Positions 8,380 to 10,917 of a DNA stretch of 42,984 bases are shown here, piece by piece. The position numbers were made by a program, and so were the translations under genes. The notes beneath the pieces were generated by a model. It had not been told where the DNA came from. It worked only from the letters and a program-made list of their open reading frames with translations, and did not search any database. Positions within the stretch are counted from its first letter, which is position 1. Every line of letters begins with the position of its first letter. This stretch comes from Gammaproteobacteria bacterium (GTDB lineage Bacteria; Pseudomonadota; Gammaproteobacteria; SURF-13): assembly GCA_030655395.1 (NCBI GenBank), contig JAURVQ010000003.1, positions 1 through 42,984 on the forward strand, written 5' to 3'.

Positions 8380-8841
8380 ATGCAGATTACCGATCTCCTC
8401 GCCCCGCAACGCATTGCCTGCCACGCCCGCAGCGCAAGCAAGAAACGCACGTTCGAACTGCTGAGCGAGCTGCTGGCAGGCGCGCAGCCGGGACCCGATG
8501 CGCACGAAATCTTCGATAGCCTGGTGGCGCGTGAGCGCCTCGGCGGCACCGGTCTTGGCCACGGTGTCGCGCTGCCGCACGGGCGCCTGAAAGGGGCCCA
8601 GCGGCCGATGGGCGCTTTTGTGCGACTCGCAGACGGTGTCGATTTCGATACCCTCGACAAACAGCCGGTCGACATACTGTTCGCCCTGCTGGTGCCTGAG
8701 AACTGCACCGAGGAGCACTTGCAGATACTCGCCCTGCTGGCGCAGATGTTCAGCGACAAGAATCTGCGCGCGGAGTTGCGCGCTGCTGACTCCAGTGAGG
8801 CCCTGTACGAACTGCTGAGCCACTGGCGGCCTGTCGCCTGA
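8380..8841 (+). CDS. ptsN: PTS IIA-Ntr regulatory protein
   Basis: Phospho-acceptor of the nitrogen phosphotransferase relay (EI-Ntr, NPr, IIA-Ntr), which regulates potassium transport and other processes and does not transport sugar. The 153-residue PTS EIIA type-2 domain has the active-site motif GHGVALPHGRL, with His67 as the expected phosphorylation site. It lies 48 bp after hpf and 9 bp before hprK. Confidence 0.95.
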   Translation: MQITDLLAPQRIACHARSASKKRTFELLSELLAGAQPGPDAHEIFDSLVARERLGGTGLGHGVALPHGRLKGAQRPMGAFVRLADGVDFDTLDKQPVDILFALLVPENCTEEHLQILALLAQMFSDKNLRAELRAADSSEALYELLSHWRPVA

Positions 8842-8850
8842 GATGGCCCC

Positions 8851-9393
8851 ATGCCACGGACTGCCGACATGACGCTGCACGGCGTGTTCATGGAGATACT
8901 GGGCCTCGGCGTGCTGGTGTGCGGCGCGAGCGGTGTGGGCAAGGGCGAGCTTGCGCTCGAACTCGTCACACGCGGGCACCGTCTCATCGCCGATGACGCG
9001 CCGGAATTCCACGCCACCGCGGATACAGCGCCGCAAGGCACATGCCCGCCGCTGCTGCAGGATATGCTCGAAGTGCGCGGCCTCGGCGTGCTGAATATCC
9101 GCGCCCTGTTCGGAGTTGCCGCCATCGCACCCCGCGCCGTGCTCGCGCTCAAGGTACACCTGCAACCCAATGCCGTGACTACTTTGCACACCTTCACACC
9201 GGATTATCGCACCTGCACGGTGCTGGGCCGTGACATTCCTGAAGTGACGCTGCCACTCATGCCGGGCCGCAACACGGCCCTGCTCATCGAAACCCTGGTG
9301 CGTGATTTCAAGCTGCGCCGCAGCGGTTATGACGCGGCACAGGATTTTGTCCGGCGTCAACGCGACTTCATGCAGCGTCAGCGCGAGGCATGA
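8851..9393 (+). CDS. hprK: HPr kinase/phosphorylase, catalytic domain only
   Basis: HprK phosphorylates, and dephosphorylates, a serine on HPr. This product has 180 residues against roughly 310 in the usual two-domain enzyme. It begins about nine residues before the catalytic His (LHGVFM, His10) and holds only the C-terminal kinase domain: P-loop GASGVGKG (25-32), LIADD (45-49), the family signature LEVRGLGVLNIRALFG (73-88) and LPLMPGRNTALLIE. The N-terminal domain is absent; ptsN ends directly upstream. The residue after the P-loop lysine is Gly32 (codon GGC) where Ser or Thr normally coordinates Mg2+. HPr (10648) keeps the target Ser46. It overlaps rapZ by 4 bp. Activity is uncertain. Confidence 0.88.
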   Translation: MPRTADMTLHGVFMEILGLGVLVCGASGVGKGELALELVTRGHRLIADDAPEFHATADTAPQGTCPPLLQDMLEVRGLGVLNIRALFGVAAIAPRAVLALKVHLQPNAVTTLHTFTPDYRTCTVLGRDIPEVTLPLMPGRNTALLIETLVRDFKLRRSGYDAAQDFVRRQRDFMQRQREA

Positions 9394-10247
9394 AACTCGT
9401 CATCGTCACCGGGCTCTCCGGCTCCGGCAAGAGCACCGCGCTGCAGGCGCTGGAAGACCTGGGTTACTACTGCATCGACAACCTGCCGGTGGGCCTGCTG
9501 CCCGCCTTTGCCGCCGGGCTTGCGAAAGGGGTGCAGCAGGGTTACGAGAATGCAGCGGTCGGCATCGACGCGCGCACGCTCACCGACGATCTGCACCATG
9601 TGCCGCAACTGCTGGACGAGATCAAGCACGGCGGGTTGGCGTGCGAGATGATATTTCTCGACGCCGGCGACAAGACGCTGCTCAAGCGTTTCAGCGAGAC
9701 GCGGCGCAAGCATCCGCTGTCGCGCCTCGGCATGCCGCTGGCCGAGGCCATCGCCTATGAGCGCAGGCTGCTGGCGCCGATGTTCGCGCGTGCCGACACT
9801 CACCTCGACACCAGCGAGACCAATGTGCATCAGCTACGTGAGCTGGTGCGCGGGCGCATGGAAAAAAAGGGCCGTAGCGCGATGTCGATCCTGTTTCAGT
9901 CGTTTGCCTACAAAAGAGGCATTCCGGCGGACGCCGATTTCGTGTTTGATCTGCGCTGTCTGCCCAACCCGCACTGGCAGGAGGCGTTGCGTCCGCTCAA
10001 CGGCCTCGATGCCCCGGTGGCGGCCTATCTCGCGGCGCAGCCAGCGGTCAACCAGATGGGCGAGCAGATCACGGCGTTTCTCGAGCACTGGGTGCCCGCG
10101 TTCGAGGCGGAGAACCGCAGCTACATGACGGTGGCGCTGGGCTGCACCGGCGGTCAGCACCGTTCGGTATATTTCGCGCAGCGTCTGGCCGATCATTTCC
10201 ATAAAATGCGCGATAATGTATTAATACGGCATCGAGACCTCACATGA
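9390..10247 (+). CDS. rapZ: RNase adapter RapZ
   Basis: RapZ is an RNA-binding protein; in E. coli it directs RNase E to the sRNA GlmZ and so tunes glucosamine-6-phosphate synthase. The 285-residue protein has an N-terminal P-loop domain (GLSGSGKST, 8-16; DNLPVGLLPAF) and a C-terminal domain ending in SYMTVALGCTGGQHRSVYFAQRLADHF, the conserved RNA-binding/phosphosugar-sensing part. It overlaps hprK and the following IIA gene by 4 bp at each end (ATGA), so all three are probably translationally coupled. No GlmZ-like RNA was seen in the window. Confidence 0.96.
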   Translation: MKLVIVTGLSGSGKSTALQALEDLGYYCIDNLPVGLLPAFAAGLAKGVQQGYENAAVGIDARTLTDDLHHVPQLLDEIKHGGLACEMIFLDAGDKTLLKRFSETRRKHPLSRLGMPLAEAIAYERRLLAPMFARADTHLDTSETNVHQLRELVRGRMEKKGRSAMSILFQSFAYKRGIPADADFVFDLRCLPNPHWQEALRPLNGLDAPVAAYLAAQPAVNQMGEQITAFLEHWVPAFEAENRSYMTVALGCTGGQHRSVYFAQRLADHFHKMRDNVLIRHRDLT

Positions 10248-10645
10248 CCATTGGCCTGTTGATCATTACCCACAACCACATCGGCGACGATCTGGTCGCC
10301 ACCGCTACCGCCATGCTGGGCCTGTGTCCGCTGGCCACCGAGGTACTGTCGGTGACGCAGAATGCAGACCCGGAGACGACACTGCGCAAGGCACGTCAGT
10401 CGGTCGCGGCGCTCGATCAGGGTAACGGCGTGCTGGTGCTGACCGACATCTACGGCTCCACGCCGAGCAATATCGCCTGTCACCTGATCGACAGCGGGCG
10501 CGTGCAGGTGATTGCGGGCGTCAATCTGCCGATGCTGATCCGCATCCTGAATTATCCGCAGCTCGGCCTCGCCGAACTCGTGGACAAGGCCATCTCCGGC
10601 GGCAAGGACGGCGTGTTGTACTGCAACCCCGTCTGCGCGGGCTGA
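10244..10645 (+). CDS. PTS mannose-type IIA component
   Basis: A stand-alone EIIA of the mannose family, 133 residues, with active-site motif IITHNHIGDDL (expected phospho-His at His10) and the typical VLVLTDIYGSTPSNIA and VIAGVNLPMLIRIL segments. No IIB, IIC or IID transport subunits are nearby, so it is likely a regulatory phospho-acceptor rather than part of a sugar transporter. The order hprK-rapZ-IIA-ptsH is known from beta- and gammaproteobacteria. It overlaps rapZ by 4 bp and is followed by ptsH after 2 bp. Confidence 0.92.
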   Translation: MTIGLLIITHNHIGDDLVATATAMLGLCPLATEVLSVTQNADPETTLRKARQSVAALDQGNGVLVLTDIYGSTPSNIACHLIDSGRVQVIAGVNLPMLIRILNYPQLGLAELVDKAISGGKDGVLYCNPVCAG

Positions 10646-10647
10646 CC

Positions 10648-10917
10648 ATGCAGCTCCGCGAAGTCGTCATCTGCAACAAGCTCGGTCTGCATGCGCGCGC
10701 GGCGGCGAAATTCGTCACTCTGGCGGCGCAATTCGAGAGCGACATCCGGCTTGCGCGCGGCGCACGCGAAGTCAACGGCAAGAGCATCATGGGCGTGATG
10801 ATGCTCGCCGCCACACAGGGCACCGCACTGCACATCATTGCCGTTGGCGCAGACGAGGACTCTGCGCTGGAGCGCCTGGAGCAACTGGTCGGTGAGCGCT
10901 TTGGGGAGGCCGAGTAA
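10648..10917 (+). CDS. ptsH: Phosphocarrier protein HPr/NPr
   Basis: The 89-residue phosphocarrier transfers phosphate from EI at His15 (motif LGLHARAAAKFV). The regulatory site region NGKSIMGVMMLAA places a serine exactly at position 46, the residue modified by HprK, which fits the upstream hprK gene. In many relatives ptsI (EI) follows directly. Here the next gene, corA, comes 88 bp later, so EI must be encoded elsewhere or be missing. Confidence 0.95.
   Translation: MQLREVVICNKLGLHARAAAKFVTLAAQFESDIRLARGAREVNGKSIMGVMMLAATQGTALHIIAVGADEDSALERLEQLVGERFGEAE

Follow-up and report, generated by a model that had tools for sequence, protein, structure and literature searches.

We analyzed a 42,984-nucleotide stretch of DNA from a member of the Gammaproteobacteria (hereafter, the window), in which a gene for a single-domain HPr kinase/phosphorylase, hprK (8851 to 9393, forward strand; 180 aa), was identified through its Pfam domain (PF07475), an AF2 model, and a structural match in the PDB. 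The gene belongs to the conserved operon lptA-lptB-rpoN-hpf-ptsN-hprK-rapZ-EIIA(Man)-HPr, where it is preceded by ptsN, encoding EIIA-Ntr (8380 to 8841; TIGR01419, 149.5 bits, above the cut-off), and followed by rapZ (9390 to 10247; PF03668 and PF22740), a gene for a mannose-family EIIA (10244 to 10645; PF03610), and, three genes downstream of hprK, the gene for HPr/NPr (10648 to 10917; PF00381), all on the forward strand. The latter protein, the presumed substrate, carries His15 and Ser46 (NGKS46IMGVMML), in agreement with an earlier sequence-only reading of this DNA, according to which HPr keeps Ser46, and the same serine is present in all 6 genomes of the window's family. HPr kinases normally phosphorylate HPr, which senses sugar and nitrogen. 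Enzyme I is of the ptsP type, and its gene lies elsewhere in the genome. In the genome of the window, ptsP ends at the edge of contig C61 (base 7512), and the gene is complete in relatives; because the contig end cuts ptsP, its apparent absence is an assembly effect, and a PTS broken through a missing Enzyme I was ruled out.

The PF07475 (Hpr_kinase_C) match spans residues 6 to 169 of the protein (175 bits, E = 1e-51; cut-off 33.3), and the match to the equivalog TIGR00679, which is a full-length model, covers model positions 131 to 298 with a score of 196.1, below the cut-off of 240. Profile searches for Hpr_kinase_N, the N-terminal domain of the two-domain form, returned no match in the gene or anywhere in its genome, bearing out the earlier claim that the protein lacks this domain, and there is no space for it upstream, because hprK begins 9 bp past the end of ptsN. 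No second, intact HprK was found elsewhere in the genome. The single-domain architecture had been described as known mainly from alphaproteobacteria and as unusual in a gamma-type neighborhood. The alphaproteobacterial truncation is real, but the form is also common in Gammaproteobacteria: truncated HprK was published for both alphaproteobacteria and Coxiella in 2008 (PMC2405797), a search of the literature for gammaproteobacterial single-domain HprKs other than that of Coxiella yielded nothing more, and the N-terminal domain is missing from 38 of the 175 HprK loci outside the window's family (about 23 families; nearly all loci from the same class as the window), a frequency at which the architecture of the window protein is unremarkable. 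In the phylogenetic tree, in which several long single-domain branches are themselves unreliably placed, the window's family forms one clade (91/69) among gammaproteobacterial HprKs, its monophyly not being firmly shown, and the presumed alphaproteobacterial HprKs form a separate clade (100/98). This separation lends no support to the suggestion that the single-domain form points to alphaproteobacteria or to a transfer from that group; the loss of the N-terminal domain in the family looks like one of several such losses within Gammaproteobacteria. The HprK/P of Lactobacillus casei (L. casei) from which the first 127 residues are missing retains its activities and regulation (PMC2937029).

The distinctive feature of the window protein lies in its P-loop, GASGVGKG (residues 25 to 32; 8923 to 8946), which aligns with residues 155 to 162 of the L. 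casei enzyme and departs from the Walker A pattern GxxxxGK[S/T] at the last position. As the sequence-only reading had it, the residue after the P-loop lysine (K+1) is glycine: codon 8944 to 8946 reads GGC and places Gly32, which is followed by Glu, at the position of the Mg2+ ligand Ser162 of L. casei (PMC9399212). The same residue is encoded in separate assemblies of 2 further species of the window's genus (GGC in both G002 and G003) and of 1 species from another genus within the family (GGT in G001), which rules out the sequencing error at position 8944 that had been raised as a possible cause. At K+1, all 175 non-family HprK loci, most of them by far from the same class as the window, have Ser; GKS was likewise found in the loci retrieved across the phylum, apart from one remote, presumed alphaproteobacterial match with GKT. 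When 369 genomes of the class, drawn evenly, were scanned for the DNA pattern of GxSGxGKGE, HprK-type matches were obtained only in the 4 GKG genomes of the family, the remaining matches being located away from HprK loci and many of them representing simple G/A repeats. The P-loop comparison in relatives that had been proposed as a check was hereby carried out, and neither the scan nor the 175 non-family loci contained a full-length GKG enzyme or any GKG HprK outside the family. Judged from these alignments, the altered residue lies far beyond chance expectation, and the K+1 glycine is real, fixed in the clade, and exceptional. The third genus of the family, g3 (G004 and G005), carries GKSA and falls between the 2 GKG genera in the operon tree, so that GKG would reflect either 2 gains or 1 gain followed by a reversion.

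The AF2 model of the protein (pLDDT 92.7; 96 to 98 in the P-loop blocks) predicts an intact HprK/P fold, with the best PDB match being L. casei HprK/P (TM 0.89 to 2QMH and 0.88 to 1KKM), followed by other HprK/Ps, including that of Coxiella. The active site of the L. casei enzyme comprises His140, Lys161, Asp179, and Arg245, with Ser162 and Glu204 serving as Mg2+ ligands, and residues 266 to 271 (K3-loop) are responsible for dephosphorylation (PMC9399212). The window protein retains His10, Lys31, Asp49, and Glu74, the counterparts of His140, Lys161, Asp179, and Glu204, respectively. The Asp48-Asp49 pair (8992 to 8997), corresponding to the catalytic base Asp178-Asp179 of L. casei, is invariant in the 175 loci; both the window and genus g1 retain the HprK signature EVRGLG (9070 to 9087), which includes the second Mg2+ ligand Glu74, with the window segment LEVRGLGVL agreeing at every position with (I,L,M)E(I,V)RG(I,L,M,V)G(I,V)(I,L,M); and the K3-loop PLMPGR (9253 to 9270) is present as well. 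In the flexible loop (9169 to 9198), the alignment shows that the equivalent of the catalytic Arg245 is missing, the corresponding residues being His113/Thr114. Among class-wide HprK loci, counted with shared ancestry ignored, an Arg245 equivalent is found in 124 of 131 full-length versus 15 of 38 single-domain loci; across the class, the loss of this residue is strongly tied to that of the N-terminal domain (e.g., L012, L063, L074, and L123). Because Arg245 is missing from most single-domain forms, its loss accompanies this architecture, and it is the glycine that is specific to the clade. Domain and fold place the protein within the HprK family, but its P-loop falls outside the Walker A definition of that family, and its activity is better described as putative than as that of a standard HprK/P; it is a true HprK whose P-loop has lost an Mg2+ ligand, a rare change specific to the clade.

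Among 10 operon genes, hprK displays the highest dN/dS (0.38 between the window and G002 and 0.28 between the window and G003, versus 0.05 to 0.24 for the others), with an excess of replacement changes over its neighbors (Fisher p = 0.005 and 0.0008). Amino-acid distances place hprK at 2 to 4.6 times the rate of 5 operon neighbors within the family, versus 0.6 to 1.1 times the operon-neighbor rate outside it. Only 3 changes fell in conserved columns, where 15.6 were expected (G003, locus L003), a deficit that signals clear purifying selection on the conserved core of the family's hprK, although such selection alone does not discriminate between a kinase and an HPr-binding protein. Since evolution is faster and the changes avoid conserved columns, the constraint on hprK has been loosened with the core kept; a pseudogene was ruled out by the open frame, dN/dS below 1, and the protection of conserved columns. 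The loosening goes further in the sister genera (g3 and that of G001). In g3 (L005 of G005 and L006 of G004), hprK encodes GKSA for GKSE, QGLG for RGLG, and GYS for GRN, and Ser46 of HPr is retained. The hprK of G001 carries, in frame at the K3-loop, a dispersed repeat roughly 70 bp long (L243, 3113 to 3193); related repeat copies are present in all 6 genomes of the family, with 7 to 45 matches in each (e.g., C100:4278-4347 in G000, the genome of the window).

On balance, we consider it probable that hprK of the window encodes an HprK that is structurally intact and binds HPr but whose Mg-ATP kinase site is weakened, leaving it of low activity or differently tuned. The gene product is the single-domain HPr kinase/phosphorylase belonging to a regulatory (Ntr-type) PTS; its fold as well as its HPr-handling and catalytic residues (His10, Lys31, Asp48/Asp49, Glu74, the signature, and the K3-loop) are mostly retained, and in this clade glycine replaces one of the 2 Mg2+ ligands of Mg-ATP, Ser162. 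The most likely consequence would be weaker binding of Mg-ATP and slower ATP-dependent phosphorylation of HPr at Ser46, whereas HPr binding and the phosphate-using reactions may depend less on the Ser162 position, a combination that would argue for a low-activity or retuned HprK rather than a pseudogene. We infer the biochemical effect of Gly32 from the sequence, and altered catalysis is a sound expectation because the glycine removes a known Mg2+ ligand; any effect on activity could also stem from the Arg245 position, since the equivalent of that residue is missing too.

Conversely, HprK activity might be untouched, because adenylate and other NMP kinases, which are efficient enzymes, normally carry Gly at K+1; the residue arose independently in several NMP kinase lineages, in which the missing K+1 hydroxyl is proposed to curb wasteful hydrolysis of ATP and make the kinase more specific (PMC9599734). 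A fully active HprK, in which the glycine is tolerated or even advantageous, would be consistent with the conservation of the other core catalytic motifs and of HPr Ser46 and with purifying selection on conserved columns, but the invariance of Ser in all 175 loci outside the family makes this extension of the NMP kinase analogy somewhat unlikely. NMP kinases, moreover, usually carry Thr after the K+1 glycine (GKGT), whereas the window protein has Glu. In addition, when the equivalent Ser161 of Mycoplasma pneumoniae is mutated, the kinase activity and the binding of ATP are reportedly impaired (PMC11204831, citing Steinhauer 2002).

The joint loss of the Ser162 and Arg245 equivalents, the position of hprK as the fastest-evolving gene of the operon, and the changes in the sister genera (GKSA, QGLG, and GYS in g3 and the repeat at the K3-loop in G001) would all fit a pseudokinase that controls the PTS by binding alone, with HPr and perhaps phosphate as its ligands, and without ATP-dependent phosphorylation; we nevertheless judge this unlikely, given that genus g1 retains Lys31, Asp48/49, Glu74, and the K3-loop, none of which would be needed for pure binding. 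An enzyme biased toward phosphorylase activity, in which the Pi and PPi reactions persist and the ATP-dependent kinase is lost, could be reconciled with the intact K3-loop and with the binding of Pi and PPi at the P-loop of HprK/P (PMC2937029) but is highly improbable, because without a kinase there would be no substrate for dephosphorylation, no second HprK was found in the genome, and the proteobacterial HprKs tested are poor phosphorylases (PMC2937029). A bolder reading, which we put forward tentatively, is that of a naturally occurring HprK lineage that has given up the Mg2+ ligand of its Walker A motif, a step that NMP kinases took separately, and that now acts as a pseudokinase binding HPr or as a kinase whose preference for metal or phosphate donor has shifted.

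Returning to the favored reading of an HPr-binding HprK with a weakened kinase site, the altered protein belongs to a single family of uncultured bacteria, and the novelty resides in the glycine substitution, the single-domain shape being ordinary. The substitution occurs naturally, is fixed in the clade, and affects a residue that is otherwise invariant in the sample and is a known Mg2+ ligand in HprK, and comparison of the window HprK with its GKS relatives would constitute a clean test of the need of a P-loop protein kinase for the Walker A hydroxyl. In the regulatory PTS that the operon represents, the genes of the His-phosphorelay stay conserved while the branch for Ser phosphorylation is apparently loosening.

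Among known systems, the catalytic domain of L. casei HprK/P (1JB1, 1KKL, 1KKM, and 2QMH) resembles the window protein in its fold (TM 0.89), His140, Lys161, Asp178/179, Glu204, signature, and K3-loop, whereas the window protein has Gly in place of Ser162 and no Arg245 equivalent. The HprK of Coxiella burnetii, whose structure has been solved (PDB 3TQF), is likewise a single-domain gammaproteobacterial protein devoid of the Arg245 motif, with 33% to 35% identity in the structural alignment, but it retains GKS where the window protein has GKG. The truncated HprKs of alphaproteobacteria, such as Brucella and Agrobacterium, also lack the N-terminal domain and are associated with an Ntr-type PTS including EIIA-Man and NPr (PMC2937029); however, the window's family falls outside the presumed alphaproteobacterial clade (100/98), the 7 presumed alphaproteobacterial loci sampled carry GKS or GKT rather than GKG, and the alphaproteobacterial proteins, unlike the window protein, are devoid of the C-terminal conserved region (PMC2937029). 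Finally, adenylate and other NMP kinases share the K+1 glycine of the P-loop (PMC9599734) but belong to a different P-loop class, and the likeness is one of analogy, with no kinship claimed.
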